From Defluviitaleaceae bacterium (GTDB taxonomy: Bacteria > Bacillota > Clostridia > Lachnospirales > WQUN01): 37,140 nt of DNA. Below, one piece after another: positions 23,368 through 37,140 of this stretch. The notes under the pieces were generated by a model. The model saw only the letters and a list, made by a program, of their open reading frames with translations. It ran no database searches and had not been told where the DNA came from. Both the position numbers and the translations under genes were made by a program. Location: NCBI GenBank assembly GCA_009785615.1, contig WQVX01000009.1, positions 1-37,140 on the forward strand. Reading direction: 5' to 3'. Position 1 is the stretch's first letter. Every line of letters starts with the position of its first letter.

Positions 23368-23867
23368 GTGCTAAAACGATAAGCAAGATTGTTATGGTGT
23401 TTCAACTCTGATTCCCAAACCGGCTTCCGGTTAGAAAGTTGATCCGGGTTAGGGAAAAAAGTATCTGCCGAAGCCTGAGCTTGTACTTTTGTAATATATG
23501 CACAAGTACACTGATCCGGCAACTGCTCATATATAGTTTGACCACCTATTACAAAAACATCTTTTAAATCATATTTTTGGAGCATAGCATTCAATTGAGG
23601 TAAAGAGCCACAGCCGATTACCCCATGAATGTTATGCTCCTTATTTTGAAAATTTTTACTATCAAATTGCTTAGACAAAACGATATTAACTCGATTGGGC
23701 AATGGTTTTTTACCCGGTAAAGCTTTAAACGTATTATTATGCCCCATGATCACAACCTTATTTGTTGTCATGGATTTAAAATAACGCATATCTTCAGGAA
23801 TTGAAAACAAAAGGCGGTTGCAGCATCCAATGCCCAGGTTTTCATCTACTATTGCAATAGTGTTCAT
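23313..23867 (-). CDS. folA: Dihydrofolate reductase
   Basis: A 184-residue enzyme reducing dihydrofolate to tetrahydrofolate with NADPH. It begins NTIAIVDENLGIGCCN and has the clostridial LLFSIPEDMRYFK in place of the usual LPW-x-LPxD, then KPLPNRVNIVLS and FVIGGQTIYEQLP. The NADPH loop, usually MGRKTFESLP, reads MGHNNTFKALP: one residue longer, with His instead of Arg. The ATG at 23867 lacks a strong ribosome site, and a TTG six codons upstream is an alternative. The last ~15 residues extend beyond the usual end and overlap the convergent hypothetical gene. Confidence 0.85.
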   Translation of the reverse strand: MNTIAIVDENLGIGCCNRLLFSIPEDMRYFKSMTTNKVVIMGHNNTFKALPGKKPLPNRVNIVLSKQFDSKNFQNKEHNIHGVIGCGSLPQLNAMLQKYDLKDVFVIGGQTIYEQLPDQCTCAYITKVQAQASADTFFPNPDQLSNRKPVWESELKHHNNLAYRFSTYISVMPESLNILSSTTL

Positions 23868-23906
23868 CTTATGCAAATATGGCAACTATGAATACAGCTT
23901 CTTAAC

Positions 23907-26480: not shown

Positions 26481-26700
26481 TACTGTTCCCCCCATCTTAA
26501 CTAAATAAATTTTATTATCACTGCATATTTTTTTATTGTCTGCCAACTTATTTTTAGACAGTTGGCCTCTTTTTATGTTAGCGAAAATTTGCCACGCATT
26601 TTTCATAAGGAACAGTTCTGTGGTAAAATGCCATGGATATATTCCTAACAATTAAGTATAACATTAAAAAAATATGACTGTTACCCTTGGGGAGAGTATG
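26481..26700. other. Divergent intergenic region before nrdJ
   Basis: It should hold promoters for nrdJ and for the leftward unknown gene. A TGGTAAAAT (26611-26619) resembles an extended -10 for nrdJ, without a good -35. I see no NrdR box or cobalamin riboswitch. Confidence 0.3.
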
Positions 26701-29652
26701 ATGAATCTTTTGAATCTGGATGAAAAAATTATAAGGCATTTTACTAAAGACCTAGAAACCAGCGATAAAACCGTATACGATTTGTTTATATGGAAAAAAG
26801 TATCAGTTAAGCTTACCAATTATGCCACCGGCGCAGTTATTTTGGATATGGATGAGTTGGAATTTCCCAAACATTATTCCCAAAGTGCCTGCGATATTAT
26901 AGCCGGAAAATACTTCCGAAAGAAAGGTATACCCGGAAAACGTGGTGCAGAACATTCTATGCGCCAACTGGTACACCGCATGGTTTCTTTTTGGGTTGGT
27001 GCTCTTAAAGACGAAAAAATGCTTTCTGAAAATCAAGCACAAATCCTTTATGACGAGTTGGCTTACATGATGTTGATGCAAATGTGGGCACCAAATTCGC
27101 CACAATGGTTTAATACAGGACTATTTCATGCTTATGGTATAACAGGCACAAAGCAAGGTCATTACTACTATAATCCGCAAAAGAATGCTGTTGAGGTTTC
27201 TGATGATGCCTACACACGCACTCAAGGATCCGCTTGCTTTATTATTAGTGTACGCGATACTTTGATTGGAAACAAGTCCCTCACGGATCAAATGACTACA
27301 GAAACACTCCTCTTTAAGTACGGGTCAGGGGTAGGAACCAACTGGTCGCCTATTAGAGCAAAGGATGAATTTTTGTCCGGAGGCGGCAAATCTTCAGGCT
27401 TACTTAGCTTTTTAAAAGTTTCTGACCGTAATGCCGGGGCTATTAAATCCGGCGGTACAACCAGGCGAGCCGCTAAAATGAATATTCTAAACTTGGATCA
27501 TCCTGAGATTTTAGATTTTATCAAATGGAAGTCTGAAGAAGAGGATAAAGTAGCCGCTTTAGGCAAGATGGGCTATTCTACTGCTATAGATGGTGAGGCT
27601 TATGATACTGTATCCGGGCAAAATGCTAATAACTCTGTCCGCATAAGCAATTCCTTTATGTATGCTTTAGAATGGCAAAATGACGCAGAATGGCAAACAA
27701 GAGGTCGTATCGACTCTTCTGTAGATAATATTATTAAGGCAACAGAAATTTGGGATGCCACGGCCACGGCCGCTTGGCGTTGTGGAGATCCCGGGGTGCA
27801 ATTTGATGACACCATCAACGCTTGGCATACCTGCCCTTGTGGCGAAGATGGTAAATTAAATGCAACCCACAACCGCATTAACGCCTCTAACCCTTGCTCA
27901 GAATATATGTTTTTGGATGATACTGCTTGTAATTTAGCAAGCATTAATATATATAAGTTTTACGATTCAGCTACCAAAAAATTTGACATTGATTCTTATC
28001 TTCATGCTGTTAGATGCATCCAACTGGTATTAGAAGCTACCATTCATTGGGGACAGTTCCCAACTATGGATATTGCTCGTAAATCTTACTTATTCCGCAC
28101 AACAGGGCTTGGGCTTACCAATTTGGGAATGCTTTTTATGGCTATGGGTCTGCCTTATGATTCAGATGAGGCAAGGCAAGTGGGAGCAGCTTTGTGTTCA
28201 CTTATGACAGGGCATTCTTACTATACATCGGCTTTGATGGCTCAAAAAATAGGTGCGTTTTCTTGTTATGATGTCAATAAAGCACATATGAACAAAGTGA
28301 TACGCAATCATGCCAGGGCAGCTTCTTACAGCTCTTCTGATGTTCGTATGGAGGACATGCCTTACAGCCCCGGTATGATAGATCATAATATATTAAAGTC
28401 GTTGGGATTAGAAGATTTATCTAAAACGATAAACAAGGTATGGCAAGAAACAATAGAGGTTGGCGAGCAATTTGGATATCGCAATGCACAAGTAAGCGTA
28501 CTTGCGCCTACAGGAACCATTGCCTTTGCTATGGACTGTGCTACAACCTCCAGCGAGCCATTCTTTAGCCATGTGGTGTACAAAAAGCTGATTGGGGGTC
28601 AATATATGACCCTTGTAAATCCGGCTATTCCGGAAGCTCTTAATACATTGGGATACCCCCAAGAAGAAATTGATGCAATTATAGAATATGTAATGCGTAA
28701 AGACGAAGATGACACTATAAAAGATGGAAAAATAGAAGGTGCGCCACATCTTAAAGCGGAACATTTGCCGGTATTTGATACTGCCAACAGATGTGGTACA
28801 GGCAAGCGATTTATTTCGCCGGAAGGCCATGTAAAAATGATGGCGGCACTTACTCCACATATAACAGGTGCTATCAGTAAGACGGTCAATCTCCCTAAAG
28901 AATCTACCATTGAGCAGGTTAAAGAAATATATCGCATGTCTTGGCAAATGGGAGTAAAAGCCATAGCCTTATATCGAGATGGTTGCAAGGTAAGCCAGGT
29001 ATTAAGTTCGACCAAGGATGCAGCGCAAGAGCGTCCTATTACGGAATATACCTACCAAGAGCTGATAGACTACATCAATACTAAGAAAACAGTGTACAAG
29101 CCTAAGCGAGTTAAGCCTACGGGTATAAGATCCGCCAATGTTCATAAAGCGGCTATTAACGGCCTTACGTTATACATTACTGCCAGTTACTACGATGATG
29201 GGCGGCTGGCAGAGATATTTGCCACAACAGGACGTCAAGGATCATTGGTTAAAGGGCTTTTAGAAAGCCTGTCTATAACCATCTCTAAGATGCTACAGTA
29301 TGGTATAGCTCCTAAAGATATTGCTATGATGTACCGTGGCCAAAAGTATGAGCCTAACGGTTTTGTATCAGAGCATCCATATATTAAGCAAGTAGACTCT
29401 ATATCCGATTTGATCAGCAAAATAATAGATATAGAGATGGGTGATTATACGTACTGCCAAGTAAAACCTGATGATTTAGAAATTGATGAATCCAAATTTG
29501 CTGATGTTGACTACTCTGTACTTATTAGGGAATATAATGCAGCAGATTATCTCTATGGGGAAATTTGCCCGGATTGTAAGAGTAACAAACTAGTCAAAAA
29601 CGGAACTTGTAAAGTATGTACCGAATGCGGAAGCACAACGGGGTGTAGTTGA
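26701..29652 (+). CDS. nrdJ: Vitamin B12-dependent (class II) ribonucleotide reductase
   Basis: A 983-residue adenosylcobalamin-dependent reductase making deoxyribonucleotides without oxygen. It shows the substrate/radical motifs SACFIISV (near residue 180), the active-site NPCSE with Cys399 and Glu401, APTGTIAFAMDC, and a C-terminal zinc-ribbon-like tail (CPDCKSNKL and CTECGSTTGCS) that carries redox cysteines, usual for long NrdJ. The start is the ATG at 26701, 6 bases after GGGGAG; ATGs at 26674 and 26698 are in frame but badly spaced. It is monocistronic, ended by the strong terminator at 29736. Confidence 0.96.
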   Translation: MNLLNLDEKIIRHFTKDLETSDKTVYDLFIWKKVSVKLTNYATGAVILDMDELEFPKHYSQSACDIIAGKYFRKKGIPGKRGAEHSMRQLVHRMVSFWVGALKDEKMLSENQAQILYDELAYMMLMQMWAPNSPQWFNTGLFHAYGITGTKQGHYYYNPQKNAVEVSDDAYTRTQGSACFIISVRDTLIGNKSLTDQMTTETLLFKYGSGVGTNWSPIRAKDEFLSGGGKSSGLLSFLKVSDRNAGAIKSGGTTRRAAKMNILNLDHPEILDFIKWKSEEEDKVAALGKMGYSTAIDGEAYDTVSGQNANNSVRISNSFMYALEWQNDAEWQTRGRIDSSVDNIIKATEIWDATATAAWRCGDPGVQFDDTINAWHTCPCGEDGKLNATHNRINASNPCSEYMFLDDTACNLASINIYKFYDSATKKFDIDSYLHAVRCIQLVLEATIHWGQFPTMDIARKSYLFRTTGLGLTNLGMLFMAMGLPYDSDEARQVGAALCSLMTGHSYYTSALMAQKIGAFSCYDVNKAHMNKVIRNHARAASYSSSDVRMEDMPYSPGMIDHNILKSLGLEDLSKTINKVWQETIEVGEQFGYRNAQVSVLAPTGTIAFAMDCATTSSEPFFSHVVYKKLIGGQYMTLVNPAIPEALNTLGYPQEEIDAIIEYVMRKDEDDTIKDGKIEGAPHLKAEHLPVFDTANRCGTGKRFISPEGHVKMMAALTPHITGAISKTVNLPKESTIEQVKEIYRMSWQMGVKAIALYRDGCKVSQVLSSTKDAAQERPITEYTYQELIDYINTKKTVYKPKRVKPTGIRSANVHKAAINGLTLYITASYYDDGRLAEIFATTGRQGSLVKGLLESLSITISKMLQYGIAPKDIAMMYRGQKYEPNGFVSEHPYIKQVDSISDLISKIIDIEMGDYTYCQVKPDDLEIDESKFADVDYSVLIREYNAADYLYGEICPDCKSNKLVKNGTCKVCTECGSTTGCS

Positions 29653-29735: not shown

Positions 29736-29783
29736 AAAAAAAGAACCCTTTGAATTGGCAATCAATTCAAAGGGTTCTTTTTT
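29736..29783. terminator. Strong bidirectional terminator between nrdJ and the phage tail module
   Basis: A 20-bp perfect stem (29737-29756 with 29764-29783) with a 7-base loop; core GAACCCTTTGAATT. A/T-rich flanks give six U residues on either strand, so it insulates rightward nrdJ from the leftward tail genes. The rest of 29653-29844 holds no gene. Confidence 0.92.
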
Positions 29784-29844
29784 GAAAGACTTCAATAGAA
29801 TGAGGTTAACGGACAGCTCTAATGGACTAACCTAATATTTAAAT

Positions 29845-30219
29845 CTAAGAAGTGAACTCATTATGCAATTGTTTTTCCAGTTCAATAATTTCTTCACGCC
29901 ATATTTGCCGCTTAGACTTAATTATTTTTCTTGGATTTTCGTCGGTGGCTACTTCACCATAAACTTGTAAAATTTCTTTTTCCTCCGGTGTTAGTATCTC
30001 TATTTCGGATAATGCACTTCTAAAAGCTGTTAAGCCTTGGTTGTCCATAGTTTGCAGAATTGCACCCAATATATTTTCCAAATGTGCAATGGCATGACTA
30101 TCACTTTGTCTTAATGCAATCATACGGGCATTTATCTCTGCCTCTATTTCATGATTGTCATTGTGTTCCAATTCCGCAGCAACAATTCCGGTTGCCGGGG
30201 TTTCTGTCTTATTTGACAT
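29845..30219 (-). CDS. Small acidic phage-associated protein, function unknown
   Basis: A 124-residue soluble, mainly helical protein at the end of the tail operon. It has no membrane segment, so it is not a holin. Long charged helices (residues 22-55 and 85-120) might form a coiled coil; a tail-fibre chaperone or structural role is plausible from position but not shown. AAGGAGAA lies 6 bases before the ATG, 35 bases after the fibre gene. Confidence 0.6.
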   Translation of the reverse strand: MSNKTETPATGIVAAELEHNDNHEIEAEINARMIALRQSDSHAIAHLENILGAILQTMDNQGLTAFRSALSEIEILTPEEKEILQVYGEVATDENPRKIIKSKRQIWREEIIELEKQLHNEFTS

Positions 30220-30254
30220 AGGTCATTCTCCTTATTTTTTGGTTAGTGAAAGCA

Positions 30255-31559
30255 TTAAGCAACACGGAAGCAAATGGGAACACGTGTGGCGGTGGCTCCC
30301 GCAGTATTTGTCAAACTAAGAGACATAGCAGCAACCCCATTTAAGGAAACGACTGCGACACTGGTAGAAGAGCCTCCTCTGGGAGTAACTAGCCACCAAT
30401 ACGAGCGAGTGTCTGTGCCTGCTATAACTTTTACACGTTTCATATTTTGGGCAAATATCGGATATTGAACATATCCTCCCGATCCAAACCCCGGCTCCGG
30501 AACCACATTACTACCCCATTGCCTACAGCCATATACTTCAACTTCCGATGGAAGCCAAAGTTCGTCCATTACGCGCCAGTTCCACTGGTTATCATCCGGT
30601 AATAAAATGCCTGTAGAGTGGCGTCGCCCCATTAAAGTTTCTTTGGGAGTAATAACATTGCGAACTTCTATTGGGATTTGGCTTAAAATGCCGCCACTTC
30701 TGTAGTCTACGGTTGTTGTAGGTGGGCTTGCTCCTGTTCCGTTTGGTACGCTTGTTTGTAGGCTGTTTATAAAAGCATTGGCGTTTGAGGCAAGAAAAGG
30801 TGTTGTCATGGAATCAAGACCATTGTTGTAATTAGCGAGATTCCAAGGTATCGGATCAGGCCATAATTCACGGCTGATGAAATCAATTTGGGGTGGTAGT
30901 ATTGATGCTGCTCTCCCATACCTTTCATAGGTATTTATCCCTGCTACTTCCATGTTGTAGGTATTTCCGGCTACTTCAAGCGGAATAAAATCCCCCGGCA
31001 AAATACCTGTAAAATTATTGGATCGTATTCTATTTTGAATCCACGCCCATGGATCACCATTGAATGGTGCATCAGATATTTCTTCTTGGAATTTTATGGT
31101 CAAGTCTACGCCCCGGTAAATGCGGCTTAATACTTGCAACGCAGTATTTGTGGCATCTGATAACGCTGCTGAACTCTCTTGTAAATCAGTATCCAGGTCA
31201 TGGATTTTACTTTCAGTATCAGCATGAAGTTGCTCAATATTATCTTGCACCACATCCAAATCATGAGAAGTGAAATTGCGAGCGATTGGAGTATTTTGAG
31301 GCCAATTTAAAGGTACATCTCCATCTGCAAAGGCTCTGGTTACGTTAATAAGTGTATTGTTTGCTATATTTTTGCTTTCGTATCTTATCGTTTCACGATT
31401 TCCACCATGTTGCAGCACTGCGATATTTTCTCCCGGTGGAAATATTGCGTCGCTTGCGTCCTCTACATGTATGGTTGTTACAGTTGAGCCAAGCTGTACA
31501 CTCAATCCGGTTGGTGGGGAATATGGTATGCCCCTGTACATCTTTTGCAATTGTCTCAT
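30255..31559 (-). CDS. Tail fibre / receptor-binding protein, DUF6273-like C-terminus
   Basis: A 434-residue protein. The N-terminal part (about 1-115: YRGIPYSPPTGLSVQLG, IRYESKNIANNTLINVTRAF, IARNFTSHDLDVVQDNIEQL) resembles the tail-attachment domain of siphovirus fibres; a short coiled coil (about 105-145) follows. Residues 165-275 form an uncharacterised beta-rich part. The C-terminus has MDELWLPSEVEVYG, GGYVQYPIFAQN, SYWWLVTPRGG and PICFRVA, a DUF6273-like domain probably making the receptor-binding tip. It could set host range. It overlaps the upstream 60-aa gene by 4 bases, so translation is coupled. Confidence 0.7.
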   Translation of the reverse strand: MRQLQKMYRGIPYSPPTGLSVQLGSTVTTIHVEDASDAIFPPGENIAVLQHGGNRETIRYESKNIANNTLINVTRAFADGDVPLNWPQNTPIARNFTSHDLDVVQDNIEQLHADTESKIHDLDTDLQESSAALSDATNTALQVLSRIYRGVDLTIKFQEEISDAPFNGDPWAWIQNRIRSNNFTGILPGDFIPLEVAGNTYNMEVAGINTYERYGRAASILPPQIDFISRELWPDPIPWNLANYNNGLDSMTTPFLASNANAFINSLQTSVPNGTGASPPTTTVDYRSGGILSQIPIEVRNVITPKETLMGRRHSTGILLPDDNQWNWRVMDELWLPSEVEVYGCRQWGSNVVPEPGFGSGGYVQYPIFAQNMKRVKVIAGTDTRSYWWLVTPRGGSSTSVAVVSLNGVAAMSLSLTNTAGATATRVPICFRVA

Positions 31560-31738
31560 TGATGAATCAACTCCACTCTGTTTATTGGGTACGTTTGTAC
31601 CCCTCCGCTACTGTCATAAATAGTAATAACTTCATAAGGTGCTGATGTTTCTTTTGCTGTATCGAATATTATTTGAAGTGCTTTAATATCCGTTACTTCC
31701 ATCTTGCCATCAATTATTATTTTTGTTGGTTTTGTCAT
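31556..31738 (-). CDS. Small tail-module protein
   Basis: A 60-residue protein starting MTKPTKIIIDGKMEVTD. Its ATG overlaps the stop of the tail/fibre gene upstream by 4 bases, and its own stop overlaps the next ATG by 4 bases, a strong sign that it is translated. It looks like a small beta-alpha protein (EVITIYDSSGGVQTYPINRVE). Function unknown; a connector or chaperone for the neighbouring fibres is possible. Confidence 0.7.
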   Translation of the reverse strand: MTKPTKIIIDGKMEVTDIKALQIIFDTAKETSAPYEVITIYDSSGGVQTYPINRVELIHQ

Positions 31739-33876
31739 AGTACTAACTCCCTTTCTGCCATTAAAAATCCTTGTACAAAAACTGTGATCAAAACGTAAGC
31801 AGGCACATTTGGTCTTATTTCTATTCGATGAAGGAAATTTGTGTTAATCTCACCATTTTGGGCTACCATCCATTGTTGAATTTCATCTCTGAATGTACGT
31901 CCTTGCACTACGCGCCTATCTGCATTGTTTATTCTTATAGTAAATGATGTCGGATTGCCTACAGGCGTTATGCCCGCTTCAAGCAAATGTGTATGCGGCA
32001 TATGATGTTGGTGGTTGGTTAAAGTATGGTGGTGGTTGCCGGTGTCAACGTTTTCATAGCGCAATGTTGCACTGCTAGGTGTCAAGCTAGGTAATCTGCG
32101 GCCTGTTAAACTCGGCAAGCTTCGATTTGCTAAATTGGGTAAACTTCGATCCGAAAGACTAGGCAATCTGCGGCCTGAAAGACTTGGTGCACTACCAGCA
32201 TTCCATGTTCCTAAGCTACCAGGATTCCAACTTATTAAATCTCTTGGAATATATAAGGTATGTCGGATTTCCAAGGAATTCATGCGTTCTAGTAAAAATT
32301 TATCATTACCAAACCAAGAACCTTCTTGATTTGACATTATGCCACCATGAGTATATTGGCGTGTAATTTCACCACCCAAACTTAGCGATTCTGGCAATGT
32401 CAAACTTGGTAAGCCCTGACCTGAAAGACTGGGCACACTTCCAGCGTTCCACGTTCCCAAACTTCCAGGATTCCATGTTCCCAGAGTCCCAGCACTCCAT
32501 GTTCCTAAGCTCCCAGGATTCCATATTCCTAAACTTCCCTGATCAAATATTGACGGAGTAAATGTTAACCTAACATGATGAGATCCTGTATTATGCTCTC
32601 TTGTCATTAATCCGGTGCTATTTATGTTAGGCTGTTCAGTTGCTCTATTGGCCACATTAATTTCAAACGGCCTAACCTCAACATTAAGCGTCACAAAATT
32701 AACAACTCGCATACTACCGGGAATAAAAAGAGGCATATACGCAGCTCTAGTTTGTGTCGCATTTTCAGCGTGGTGATTTTGCCAAAACTGCGTAACTCCT
32801 TGAGCATACGTTGCCTCTATTCGTTGCCGATTTCTCAATTGCAAAACTTCATTAGCGATATCTCTTGTCTTATTGGCCAGGGTCAAGGTGCATTTGGGAA
32901 TTTCTTTATGCTCCCACCTTATGCCTGTTATAAAAGTTTTCTTGAATCCCACTATTTCAGCAAGCTTACCTATAGCCGGAGTGCTAAAAGGATCACCATC
33001 CAATTGAGAAAGTTCAACTTCGTATTCCTCAAATGGCTCTTGAGCCTCATTTAAAATAGACTGCCCTATTTCCATCAAGCTTCTAGGGTTTTGTATTCGT
33101 CTATCCACAAAAGTACGCTCAATAGCATTGGGATAAAGTCTAAATATCTCCGGCGGCGACTGCAAAAAATCAACACCATTATTTACGCTTGATATCGTTA
33201 GCCGATTTACGCCTTCGCCATAGCCATAAGGGTATAATCGCGTACAAACGGTTGTTTGGTCTTGCCTTTTAGTTGCTTTAATTCGATTTTTCCCTTGCTC
33301 AATATACAGATCGGGTACAGCATTAGGATGTAGCTCTTTGAGATTTAAGACAAAAGGAAAGCTGCTTGTATCGAATGTCCACATAAAAGGTGCTAAAAAG
33401 TGATGTGGAACATCTAAAACAGCAGCTAACAAACTTTCGTCTGTCCATCCATATTCAAAGTTAAAGCGAAAATCACATTCTCCTAAAACCCAATTTCTTA
33501 TTGGCTGACGGGATAATATTTGACGTATGACGGCATCTGTGCGCCCGACTGTACCTGCACCACCCAAAATTACATCGCCTATCATCAAAGTATCTACCAG
33601 CGTAGCCAGCACATGCTCTCCACGATATTCCCAATCTCCTTCCTCGTTTATTGTTTTGCCATTGTACATTATCCTGTACAATTCTCCGCCGGGATTACGA
33701 ATGTAATTAAATGCTCGGCAGTATTGGTTTTTATGATCATTGTAGGGCAGGGAAAAACTAATATGGCTAATTGTGTTTATTTTTTCTTCTTCTACAATGT
33801 TGTAGGCATTTTCCAAATCTGCCAAAGGTTCCATTCGACTATTCAAGATAATTAACTTGTTATAGCCATCTATCAT
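31735..33876 (-). CDS. Siphovirus tail/fibre protein with octapeptide repeats and His-rich tip
   Basis: A 713-residue protein. The first ~350 residues resemble the baseplate hub/minor structural protein (Tal-type) that follows Dit. From about 446 to 500 and 547 to 601 there are two blocks of 8-residue repeats (GSLGTWNP/NA and LPSLSGRR/LPSLTGRR types) that should fold as a regular beta fibre shaft. Then a His-rich segment (NHHHTLTNHQHHMPHTH, about 612-628) recalls metal-binding HxH tips of phage tail fibres. A beta-rich domain ends the chain. It overlaps the 303-aa gene by 17 bases and the 60-aa gene by 4. Confidence 0.78.
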   Translation of the reverse strand: MIDGYNKLIILNSRMEPLADLENAYNIVEEEKINTISHISFSLPYNDHKNQYCRAFNYIRNPGGELYRIMYNGKTINEEGDWEYRGEHVLATLVDTLMIGDVILGGAGTVGRTDAVIRQILSRQPIRNWVLGECDFRFNFEYGWTDESLLAAVLDVPHHFLAPFMWTFDTSSFPFVLNLKELHPNAVPDLYIEQGKNRIKATKRQDQTTVCTRLYPYGYGEGVNRLTISSVNNGVDFLQSPPEIFRLYPNAIERTFVDRRIQNPRSLMEIGQSILNEAQEPFEEYEVELSQLDGDPFSTPAIGKLAEIVGFKKTFITGIRWEHKEIPKCTLTLANKTRDIANEVLQLRNRQRIEATYAQGVTQFWQNHHAENATQTRAAYMPLFIPGSMRVVNFVTLNVEVRPFEINVANRATEQPNINSTGLMTREHNTGSHHVRLTFTPSIFDQGSLGIWNPGSLGTWSAGTLGTWNPGSLGTWNAGSVPSLSGQGLPSLTLPESLSLGGEITRQYTHGGIMSNQEGSWFGNDKFLLERMNSLEIRHTLYIPRDLISWNPGSLGTWNAGSAPSLSGRRLPSLSDRSLPNLANRSLPSLTGRRLPSLTPSSATLRYENVDTGNHHHTLTNHQHHMPHTHLLEAGITPVGNPTSFTIRINNADRRVVQGRTFRDEIQQWMVAQNGEINTNFLHRIEIRPNVPAYVLITVFVQGFLMAERELVL
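32074..32235 (-). repeat. 24-base tandem repeats in the fibre gene, block B
   Basis: Diverged 24-base units encode LPSLSGRR, LPSLSDRS, LPNLANRS, LPSLTGRR and LPSLTP. They follow a short NPGSLGTWNAGS segment related to block A. Confidence 0.75.
32378..32538 (-). repeat. 24-base tandem repeats in the fibre gene, block A
   Basis: Units encode GSLGIWNP, GSLGTWSA, GTLGTWNP and GSLGTWNA, then GS-VPSLSGQG-LPSLTLPE. Four near-identical octapeptides grade into the other type seen in block B. Confidence 0.8.
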
Positions 33877-34771
33877 TGTAAATCACATCCCCTTCAAGTC
33901 TGGGGTTGCCTTGATGCCCCACATGTAATCGCTGTGTATTGCGATCAAAGTGTATCCAATCGCCAATAAAACGACTTCTTAAATTGATTGTTTGCCCTCT
34001 ATGATTCAAAAATACAGTGAAATTATTAGAGTCTACCCTCAATTCACTGCCCGGAGGCATTTCTCCACTGATGAAGAATGTTTGATAGCGGCGCAATGCG
34101 ATACGCAAAAAGTTATTGATAATCTCGTATAAATCCGATTCTTCCCACATTATTTTGCCAACGTGGACATTGCCTTCTAATATCTCTTTTATTTCAAATT
34201 CAGTGTAGAAGATTTTTCCTGCATGAGAATTATTTTCAATAACTTCTTTAATATTTGGCAATTGGTACATTATCTTGCCGCTATGCATTTGTCCTGTAAC
34301 ACGCTCTTGCATATTTGACTCGTTAAAGGCGTAAACTAATAATTCAAGAGGTTCGTGCGTGATTCTTTCATAAAGCTGAACTGAATTAGGCAAAATTGCT
34401 GAAGGATTTGCTCTAACATCTAGCTGTTCCCTAATTCTTGAAATCACGCTTATAATCTTTGTTTGTCCAATTAAGCCGCCCATGTGCTCATGTATAATTG
34501 ACTCTGCATCAAGATAGCGATACATGTCGTTAGAAGAATTAAAGCTCATGGTATTGAAACCACCAACATTAAAGCTTGAACCTATAATCCCAAAATTGAA
34601 AGTAGAGCCTTTGATTTCAGCTTGAAGGATTTCTGTAAGAGCAGATTCAGCATCCACAAATTTAGTGAGTATAACACCTTCTATACGCTCACTAATTATG
34701 CTTGTCGCATTAAGTTCAACATAATAATCATCTGTACCAATGTTAAATTCGCCTAAGTTAAATCTAATCAT
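33860..34771 (-). CDS. Tail protein carrying a Dit-like C-terminal domain and internal repeats
   Basis: A 303-residue protein. The N-terminal part is rich in Phe-Asn (FNLGEFNIG, FNFGIIGSSFNVGGFN). The middle (about 155-225) has three to four ~26-residue repeats built on H-x-GKI-M/F-Y/W then EI/EVIE (HSGKIMY, HAGKIFY, HVGKIMW). The last ~70 residues (FISGEMPPGSELRVDS to GDVIYNDRWL) look like the C-terminal domain of siphovirus distal tail proteins. The Dit N-terminal half lies two genes upstream. Start overlaps the upstream stop by 8 bases. Function as a tail-tip component is inferred from position. Confidence 0.6.
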   Translation of the reverse strand: MIRFNLGEFNIGTDDYYVELNATSIISERIEGVILTKFVDAESALTEILQAEIKGSTFNFGIIGSSFNVGGFNTMSFNSSNDMYRYLDAESIIHEHMGGLIGQTKIISVISRIREQLDVRANPSAILPNSVQLYERITHEPLELLVYAFNESNMQERVTGQMHSGKIMYQLPNIKEVIENNSHAGKIFYTEFEIKEILEGNVHVGKIMWEESDLYEIINNFLRIALRRYQTFFISGEMPPGSELRVDSNNFTVFLNHRGQTINLRSRFIGDWIHFDRNTQRLHVGHQGNPRLEGDVIYNDRWL

Positions 34772-35555
34772 GGCTAATTATAATGCTTCTTTCTGCGAAG
34801 CGTCCTATATAGCCCCTATGAATTTCTTCAGGATTTGGACTTGAATCAAAGGCGGCTATTGCAGCACCTGTTGCTGCCTGCATAAAACCTCTGTACCTCC
34901 ACATGCCCCAGCGATCTAATGGTGTTGGGAAAGTAACTGTATTTGTGTTTGTTATAGTCATAACTCCATTAACTACATGTGGGGCAGTAAATGTTATAGC
35001 AGGACGTGAGTAATTTTCTCCACTAAGTTCACCTCCCCCTGATTCAGGATTTCCATCAAACATAGCAGCATGTGTTGTAAAACCGGTCAATGATTGACCT
35101 CGAAGAAGATTTAAATATGCCGTACGGAATTGACGTGAAAAATTGCCACGGCTCCAATAAATTATGTCTCCGGCTAAAATACCGGGCTGTTGATTTGGTC
35201 TGATTTCAAGCGGAACGGTTAGCTCGCCCCTAAGCAACATGTTACCCTGTGGGTCGCCCGGTTGTTGTCTATCAAATATACCTATATATCTGACACTTCC
35301 CGGTGATTGTGAGGACATTGGCCATGTAATATCTTGTGTATTACTGATGGATAAATGCCCATTAAAGTCCGCTGGAGGTGTAAATGATATTGGTTGTCGT
35401 TGATAGCCTTCATACACGACTTCAGCACCCGCTTGGCCTGTATTTGTTGGGTCAGTTAGGAAAAGACCGCAAAACAATTGACCATAACCATTGGTAGATT
35501 GATTTTGAAAAGCGTTTAACACTTGCCTTGAAAAAAAATGAGTTGAAAAATACAT
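34764..35555 (-). CDS. Phage tail protein with a duplicated domain
   Basis: A 263-residue protein made of two related halves. Half one (about 30-100: LFLTDPTNTGQAGAEVVYEGYQRQPISFTPPADFNGH, NTQDITWPMS, VRYIGIFD) matches half two (about 165-235: AMFDGNPESGGGELSGENYSRPAITFTAPHVVNGV, NTNTVTFPTP, WRYRGFMQA) motif by motif. This domain resembles a fibre-associated module of siphovirus tails, often annotated only as tail protein. AAGGAGAA precedes the ATG by about 6 bases. It lies between the Dit N-terminal gene and the gene carrying a Dit-like C-terminus. Confidence 0.65.
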   Translation of the reverse strand: MYFSTHFFSRQVLNAFQNQSTNGYGQLFCGLFLTDPTNTGQAGAEVVYEGYQRQPISFTPPADFNGHLSISNTQDITWPMSSQSPGSVRYIGIFDRQQPGDPQGNMLLRGELTVPLEIRPNQQPGILAGDIIYWSRGNFSRQFRTAYLNLLRGQSLTGFTTHAAMFDGNPESGGGELSGENYSRPAITFTAPHVVNGVMTITNTNTVTFPTPLDRWGMWRYRGFMQAATGAAIAAFDSSPNPEEIHRGYIGRFAERSIIISHD

Positions 35556-35570
35556 AAAAATTTCTCCTTT

Positions 35571-36125
35571 TTATAACAGACTTAACGCTGTTACAGTTAT
35601 ATTTCTCACCGGCACGTTGTTGTTGTTTCTTAAAATTATCAACGTGGGGGTGGATGCAGTGCCATGATAATTAATATCTGTGTACCCGGTAGCTATCCTA
35701 GAGATAGTCTGATCGCTGTATGCAAACGGATCACAGAAAAATGATAAATTAAATGTTCCTGTTGGGGTTTGATTGTTATTAAACCCACGGTAATAATAGG
35801 CATTTAGTTCTGAACTGTCGTACAAGCTTGCCATATAATGCTTGTACGGCTCAATATCTAAAACCAGCGGGCCTTTACGACTTAGCCAAAGTGTTATTTC
35901 TCTAATATCATGTCGGACTTTGGGATCTTTCCAAAAACAATTTAAATTTAAAATTCGATTGTCGTACATGTTATTTTCAAAGTCGTAAGTGCCATGTCGG
36001 AAATCTATCTTCTTGCGCCCTTGCCTTTTTGGAGGGCTAAAAAAATCTTGCTCGGTTGCATATATGCCATAATCTTTGCTGGACACTCCATTGTATCTAA
36101 ATGTAAATGCACTCATATCAACCAC
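35571..36125 (-). CDS. Distal tail protein (Dit), N-terminal domain
   Basis: A 184-residue protein matching the N-terminal half of siphovirus Dit, the hexameric ring joining tail tube to tip: FTFRYNGVSSKDYGIYATE, KIDFRHGTYDFENNMYDN, LNLNCFWKD and TFNLSFFCDPFAY. It ends YHGTASTPTLIILRNNNN…VRNITVTALSLL. Full Dit proteins are about 250-300 residues with a second beta domain; here the second domain is missing, and a similar sequence occurs at the end of the 303-aa gene. It follows the tape measure gene by 3 bases, the expected Dit position. Confidence 0.8.
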   Translation of the reverse strand: MVDMSAFTFRYNGVSSKDYGIYATEQDFFSPPKRQGRKKIDFRHGTYDFENNMYDNRILNLNCFWKDPKVRHDIREITLWLSRKGPLVLDIEPYKHYMASLYDSSELNAYYYRGFNNNQTPTGTFNLSFFCDPFAYSDQTISRIATGYTDINYHGTASTPTLIILRNNNNVPVRNITVTALSLL

Positions 36126-36128
36126 CTT

Positions 36129-37140
36129 CTATATTTCTGCAAATCCTGCACCTCTTAACGTGTCATGTAATCTTTGGGCCTGTTTTCTATTTATCATATC
36201 AATGTCTATTTCATCCTCTACAGTCCATTCTTGGTTAAAAATTATTTGGATTGGTCCGGTATCTTTTGCAGATGATACTTTGCCAATGCTGCCAACATTA
36301 CGTTCAAGGCTACTTAAAGCTGTAAATGCCGGATTTATGGTAGCATTGTCCAAATCTCCAAAAGTGTCCTCTATAGTCTTTTTGATTGTGCCATCCATAG
36401 ATTTTACACCTGTGACAAAACCTTCACCTACGCCTATTCCAATCCCGGCAAATAGCCTTGATGGAGAGTTCATATCAAACATGTTTTTAGCTGTACGCTC
36501 TGCGGCATGGCACATTTCTTTTATTGCAGCTACAACTTCTTGGATGCCTTGACGTATTCCCCGGGCTGTGCTGCTTGCAATGTTTTGTCCTGCCGGGACA
36601 AATTGCTGAGTACCAAGGCGTCTTACTTCGTCTGCAAGTCCTTGAATTTCTTGAGCAGTTTCCTGACGTAGTGGTTGTAATTCTGCTACAGCCATTCGGC
36701 GGGCTATTTCATGTTGTTCACGCCACAAATTTACATATTTTGTTAGTTCAACATCACTCATTCTGTTTAATGCTGCAATTTCTGTTGCTGCACTTGGCCC
36801 CATTTCTCGAAGTTGTTGAAGTAACCCTTCGTCAATAGCCCTTCTGGAAAGAGTATCGATGTTTCTTTCCCAATCACGCATTTGGTTAACTTGAGCATCT
36901 AAATTGCCCATAAGCTGTGTGTGTTGTACCTCTTCCCGCTCCCGCAGCTCTGCAAATAAGCCAAAAGTACCGGCTATCGAAGAAGCTCTTCTGTCGATCG
37001 CGTCTTGGTATCGTTGCTCGGCCTGCTCCATGCGTTCCATAAGGCGTTCTTGTTCTTGGAAAATGCCACGTTGGAAATTGTAGTACTCTTGTAATTGCTG
37101 CTTGTTTTCGTCATACATTCGTTGATTGGCTTCGCTAAAT
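36129..37140 (-). CDS. Tape measure protein, C-terminal part (partial)
   Basis: The frame stays open to the right edge (FSEANQR precedes the first Met), so the 329 residues visible from 37118 are the end of a longer protein. Long charged helices (about 1-180, with EQERLMERMEQAEQRY) form coiled coil. A membrane-like segment and the tape-measure signature MNSPSRLFAGIGIGVGEGFVTGV lie near residues 214-236. In siphoviruses the tape measure sets tail length and is followed by Dit, as here. Confidence 0.85.
   Translation of the reverse strand, partial: FSEANQRMYDENKQQLQEYYNFQRGIFQEQERLMERMEQAEQRYQDAIDRRASSIAGTFGLFAELREREEVQHTQLMGNLDAQVNQMRDWERNIDTLSRRAIDEGLLQQLREMGPSAATEIAALNRMSDVELTKYVNLWREQHEIARRMAVAELQPLRQETAQEIQGLADEVRRLGTQQFVPAGQNIASSTARGIRQGIQEVVAAIKEMCHAAERTAKNMFDMNSPSRLFAGIGIGVGEGFVTGVKSMDGTIKKTIEDTFGDLDNATINPAFTALSSLERNVGSIGKVSSAKDTGPIQIIFNQEWTVEDEIDIDMINRKQAQRLHDTLRGAGFAEI

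Follow-up and report, generated by a model that had tools for sequence, protein, structure and literature searches.

The tail genes described here are likely to form a domesticated, headless, noncontractile tail that resembles F-type tailocins and comes closest in layout to the monocins of Listeria. Because two related bacteria carry the same headless gene set, the tail of this gut bacterium is probably kept for use against other bacteria, as a tailocin, rather than as part of a virus. What we observe directly is gene content, gene order, conservation and the absence of the portal family PF04860. The distal half of the locus lies in the window, that is, the whole stretch of DNA analysed, which is contig C9 in full (37,140 bases; GCA_009785615.1, contig WQVX01000009.1) of a draft genome of 3.29 Mb in 240 contigs, 96.85% complete. 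At the right edge of the window, the assembly thus breaks off within the tape measure gene.

Positions 29845-37140 encode, in leftward order, the tape measure protein, Dit, a gp80-like protein, a Dit-C-like protein, Tal, a 60-aa ORF, the fibre and a 124-aa protein. Open reading frames, together with family matches where stated, bear out the siphovirus order of tape measure, Dit, tail proteins and fibre that an earlier, sequence-only reading had described. The features, including two at the border and one comparison with the related genome G025, are as follows:

36129..37139, minus strand: tape measure, C-terminal 336 aa (phrog_1686, 4.7e-23), frame open at the contig end
35571..36125, minus strand: Dit, 184 aa, N-terminal-domain type (phrog_33, 1.2e-19)
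34764..35555, minus strand: gp80-like tail protein, 263 aa (PF23140 Gp80, 1.8e-31, in two stretches, the domain occurring twice)
33860..34771, minus strand: tail protein, 303 aa, 25% identical to a 333-aa G025 protein in the same place
31735..33876, minus strand: Tal, "prophage endopeptidase tail" protein, 713 aa (phrog_4311, 1.9e-77; PF06605, 3.4e-9)
31556..31738, minus strand: 60-aa ORF, an open frame that overlaps the ends of the Tal and fibre genes (overlapping start and stop codons)
30255..31559, minus strand: candidate fibre or receptor-binding protein, 434 aa, by its position after Tal
29845..30219, minus strand: 124-aa soluble protein, the last gene, where a lysis cassette would be
about 29742..29788, no strand: two-way intrinsic terminator, 21-bp stem, A/T runs on both sides (-28 kcal/mol, z = -8)
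26674..29652, plus strand: host nrdJ, class II ribonucleotide reductase (PF02867, PF08471, PF12637), a neighbour outside the tail locus

The family e-values for the tape measure, Dit, Gp80 and Tal are far beyond chance. The tape measure aligns with the C-terminal half of that of G025, Dit is 42% identical to its counterpart in G025 and 49% to that in a further genome, G072, and the gp80-like protein is 40-45% identical to both of its counterparts. Tal, the sole such gene in the genome, has its best match in G025 (43% over 390 aa). The N-terminal 105 aa of the fibre are 37% identical with the G025 fibre, and its C-terminus is weakly DUF6273-like, below the cut-off. The 303-aa protein and its 333-aa G025 counterpart share a conserved C-terminal PPG..L..DS motif; G072 has a counterpart at the same position, and the C-terminus of the 303-aa protein would, by its sequence, resemble the C-terminal domain of a split Dit. 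Profile comparison gave no family match for the 60-aa ORF and no convincing family or phage match for the 124-aa protein, which has a peak hydropathy of 0.52 and no transmembrane segment and is thus as soluble as had been claimed. The single-sequence structure models of the 124-aa protein (all-helical, low confidence, pLDDT 53) and of the fibre (pLDDT 36) were too poor for a fold search, and that the former helps in fibre assembly is no more than a guess. No relatives of the tube, Tal, Dit, fibre or 124-aa protein came out of pattern scans of IMG/VR.

At the left border, the terminator hairpin, with T runs on both strands, separates the tail operon from nrdJ, and no shuffled sequence was as stable. 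The bidirectional terminator of the sequence-only reading is confirmed, with a stem one base pair longer than the 20 bp claimed, and its host nrdJ is identified as such by the three families listed. A comparison of nrdJ neighbourhoods, which that reading had proposed, was run: the orthologues in relatives are 64-75% identical, and the C9 tail genes stand beside nrdJ in none of the 16 loci compared. Nor did the lysis genes that it had failed to see come to light, as neither family matches nor hydropathy disclosed a holin or endolysin at 29845-37140; across the tail genes hydropathy peaks at 1.72, within Tal, and none of them looks like a holin gene.

A whole-genome search with the G025 tube gave a single match, at C34:23899-24510 (74% identical), and the gene that contains it is followed by a chaperone gene:

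C34:23899-24546: tail tube, with no second tube gene detected in the genome
C34:24536-24910: chaperone G, 62% identity in the G025-based search, with GT made via -1 slippage at T_TTT_TTT

Beside the tube are a gene for a 131-aa regulator (phrog_11237) and a repressor-like gene whose 153-aa product lacks an S24 domain; beyond the latter come host genes for a cNMP-binding protein, a pyridoxine-type kinase and a chemotaxis receptor. Upstream of the tube, a leader is present twice. Contig C34 ends 1.5 kb past the chaperone and C9 opens inside the tape measure; the two ends share no overlapping sequence, the N-terminus of the tape measure is missing from the assembly, and an attempt to link the contigs by synteny did not find the C34 flank around nrdJ in 16 relatives. 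From the contiguous G025 locus, we infer that C34 is probably the upstream half of the C9 tail locus. A noncontractile tail set is then represented, with the tube and chaperone on C34 and the rest on C9, as it is in one piece in G025. The sequence-only reading had advised looking to the right of the window for the missing phage genes; on C34, the proposed other end, neither head nor lysis nor integrase genes were seen, and the C9 part likewise holds no lysis gene or integrase. That reading would have yielded to a complete head-to-lysis prophage flanked by att sites. Instead, the C34 end is headless and no direct repeat of at least 11 bp is common to the outer borders of C34 and C9.

The whole-genome search (HEADLESSNESS) with the portal family PF04860 found no match in the source genome or in G025. 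The family was found in four of the five comparison genomes (G033, G021, G013 and G037), among them all three of the relatives in which Tal is part of a prophage (G033, G021 and G013). The genome-wide search for head genes covered PF04860 only, and capsid and terminase were looked for beside the tail genes; no head gene lies beside the C34 tube. The arrangement usual in the family is seen in G033 (L037/L038), where terminase, portal, capsid and tail genes lead to a fibre and then to holin and amidase genes. As judged from the parts covered, the features of a temperate siphovirus (PF04860 portal, integrase, lysis gene and border repeats) are absent. Of those of an F-type tailocin, the tail gene set is present and the regions covered are headless, with no lysis cassette. 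We file the locus as a probable F-type-tailocin-like variant, not as a proven member, because it lacks that cassette and its activity is putative.

The G025 locus (G025:C16, WRAN01000016.1) belongs to Defluviitaleaceae bacterium Lab288P1bin39, to judge from the isolate name a termite-gut MAG, of the order Lachnospirales and the same family as the source. Its contiguous order is S24/CI-type repressor, ArpU-like regulator, tube, chaperone, tape measure, Dit, gp80, the 333-aa protein, Tal, a kelch-rich fibre and an amidase, with host genes on either side and no head gene. The first gene encodes an HTH+S24 repressor, which is consistent with SOS control. The amidase directly follows the fibre; its nearest counterpart in the source genome is only a 33%, 74-aa match within a 1670-aa protein. 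Among 392 genomes sampled from the order, a single further close tube came up, on G072:C102, from another family. This contig carries the phrog_11237 regulator, tube, chaperone, a 542-aa tape measure, Dit, gp80 and a partial 303-aa protein before it ends, and the 1.9 kb upstream of the regulator, all that the contig shows there, contains no head gene. The headless order is common to three genera, in G072 as far as its short contig goes. The loci nevertheless differ: an S24 repressor, a kelch-rich fibre and an amidase set G025 apart from C34/C9, and in G072 the tape measure is short and not preceded by an antisense gene.

The tubes of C34, G025 and G072 are 66-73% identical, with pN of 0.18-0.23 against pS of 0.85-0.88 (saturated), and by this measure are under strong purifying selection. 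The chaperone is predicted as G and G-GT in all three loci, with T_TTT_TTT at the corresponding codon and homologous GT domains in the -1 frame past the slippery site. The tube tree is compatible with the three headless tubes having arisen once, at low support (65/91). Tube constraint and the conserved frameshift site argue against a dead remnant, and we consider it unlikely that the locus is a decaying prophage from which head and lysis genes were deleted, leaving the remainder without function. Such decay does fit the missing lysis genes of the main locus, and it fits a second locus, at C2:14043-17884, beside fliS and flagellin genes. That locus has one copy of the C34 tube leader (90% identical), a chaperone G that has lost the slippery site and lacks GT, four YbjQ-like genes in antisense orientation and, without a tube or Dit, an orphan tape measure of 706 aa whose final codons agree with those of the window tape measure; it looks like a decayed second copy. 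The leader itself resembles a promoter with an immediate intrinsic-terminator hairpin, which is kept in all three copies. Every tail frame seen on C9 and C34, however, is intact, and random decay would not leave three genera with the headless order, saturated synonymous change, low protein change and the frameshift site.

An ordinary complete prophage, with head and lysis genes on sequence missing from the assembly, would suit a draft in so many contigs whose C9 breaks within the tape measure, and prophages such as that of G033, equipped with terminase, portal, capsid, holin and amidase, do have related tails. Yet in siphophages the tube follows head-tail connectors, as in Bacillus phage vB_BhaS-171, and here a small regulator takes that place; the genome has no PF04860 portal, only the 124-aa protein and terminator follow the fibre where G033 has holin and amidase, and the closest relatives are headless, all of which makes this quite improbable. 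The sequence-only reading had left the choice between lysis genes placed elsewhere and a domesticated tail. The tube beside a regulator, the lack of PF04860 and an order conserved in two other genera favour the latter and make the former the lesser option. One of the domesticated forms that it had offered, a gene-transfer agent packaging host DNA, is rejected. Gene-transfer agents are chromosomal and lack integrase and replication genes, as does this locus in the parts seen, but they need portal, capsid and terminase, and with PF04860 absent genome-wide and no head gene beside the tube this origin is extremely unlikely. A cell-associated or non-lytic device, serving adhesion or contact killing rather than release as a bacteriocin, would explain the missing lysis genes, and neither locus seen to the fibre end has a holin, nor the source genome a counterpart of the G025 amidase. 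We regard it as very doubtful: the locus has no membrane-anchoring module, the G025 amidase stands right after the fibre, and host autolysins could supply lysis.

Among known systems, Listeria monocins are F-type and have an ftb cluster of regulators, tube gene lmaA and tail genes, ending in a holin-lysin cassette, ftbQR, tied to lysis and release (PMC7076858). Monocins share with C34/C9 a headless noncontractile siphotail operon in a Gram-positive host, a likeness of layout, but C34/C9 has no terminal holin-lysin cassette. Rhizoviticin and the F-pyocins are F-type tailocins that arose from siphophage tails once the head genes had been lost, as C34/C9 probably did; they are, however, proteobacterial and come from other phage lineages, and rhizoviticin, which is probably controlled by a LexA-family repressor, retains early phage genes and part of an integrase as well as lysis genes (PMC10811719). 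Phage vB_BhaS-171 matches both the tube (35%) and Tal (31%) and has, as does C34/C9, the tube, small genes, tape measure, Dit and tip proteins in that order. In contrast to C34/C9, it is a complete phage with terminase, portal, capsid, connectors, holin, endolysin and integrase, in which the head-tail connectors directly precede the tube and holin and endolysin follow the tip genes.

If the C34/C9 locus is such a domesticated tail, relief of repression would let the regulator switch on one operon, and the tube would polymerise along the tape measure with the G-GT chaperone, while Dit, the gp80-like and Dit-C-like proteins, Tal and the fibre would form the tip. We infer particle assembly and killing from the gene set: the particle would be a noncontractile tail, free and without DNA, which would attach to competing bacteria and most likely make them permeable, in the manner proposed for tailocins and their target cells (PMC10811719). 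As a rule of thumb, tape measures of 542 to about 750 aa would correspond to tails of roughly 80-110 nm. Because the parts seen encode no holin or endolysin, release would have to depend on a lysis function outside the locus or on occasional autolysis.

Antisense genes lie between the chaperone and the tape measure in G025, C34 and C2. That of G025 encodes a lipoprotein (lipobox LLLIGCG), and those of C34 encode a 264-aa signal-peptide protein and a 151-aa protein. In genome G098, a prophage carries the tape measure as an array of N-terminal fragments plus two complete copies, and an antisense gene for a 130-135-aa protein with a C-terminal hydrophobic anchor directly precedes four of these units; no relatives of these proteins were found beside other tape measures. 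No antisense gene precedes the tape measure in G072, G033, G062 or vB_BhaS-171. Two of the three headless loci thus have such genes, whereas the passages on the monocin ftb cluster mention none (PMC7076858). A partner or immunity role of the antisense genes is only a hypothesis. It can be extended, though we doubt it, to the idea that the tape measure may be an interchangeable part with its own partner gene and the headless tail a holin-less weapon with a swappable penetration-and-immunity cassette. Ltp, a phage lipoprotein, acts on the tape measure. Superinfection-exclusion lipoproteins have their prototype in the Ltp of phage TP-J34 (PMC3952083), and in a cassette the antisense lipoprotein, secreted, membrane-anchored or YbjQ-like products could similarly shield the producer from the matching tape measure, the C2 unit of leader, chaperone and tape measure being a stored spare.

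A 2024 paper calls F-type tailocins rare and names only F-pyocin, monocin and rhizoviticin (PMC10811719), and in a literature search on tailocins and Lachnospiraceae neither word stood in the title or abstract of any paper retrieved. A headless siphotail conserved across three genera of Lachnospirales would extend the noncontractile bacteriocins by a new lineage, and it makes two questions testable: by what route tails leave the cell if there is no holin-lysin cassette, and whether the neighbours of the tape measure gene shield the producer.

Upstream of the tube gene in the source genome (G000), a leader of ~100 bp stands in two copies, and a third opens an orphan second tail cassette on another contig, C2; a genome search found no further strong matches elsewhere in G000.

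G000:C34:23581-23679 and 23770-23870, leader copies upstream of the tube gene
G000:C2:14043-14141, single leader copy on C2
G000:C2:14043-17884 (L031), second tail cassette, adjoining fliS and flagellin genes

Each leader consists of a promoter-like -10 element followed, at most ~20 bases on, by an intrinsic-terminator hairpin, in which the differences between copies preserve base pairs. Beyond its leader, the C2 cassette has a chaperone gene that encodes G but lacks GT, four YbjQ-like genes in antisense orientation, and a tape measure of 706 aa.

Tape measure genes are multiplied in a G098 prophage, which also carries additional chaperone copies.

G098:C24 (L119:1006-17549), prophage in which the tape measure gene occurs twice in full and three times as an N-terminal fragment

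Immediately upstream of four of the tape measure starts lies an antisense gene for a 130-135-aa protein with a hydrophobic anchor at its C-terminal end.

In the Defluviitaleaceae MAG G025, the amidase downstream of the fibre is duplicated, the copies being 78% identical, ~2 kb apart, and separated by two host-type genes.

G025:C16:37956-38705 and 40927-41637 (L034), amidase and its duplicate

Within the window, the gene for the tail-associated protein Tal contains a tandem repeat.

Window 32437-32538, 24-bp tandem repeat, 4.2 copies

This DNA repeat codes for GSLGTWNPGSLGTWNAG-type repeats, in place of which relatives have His-rich H-x-H repeats.
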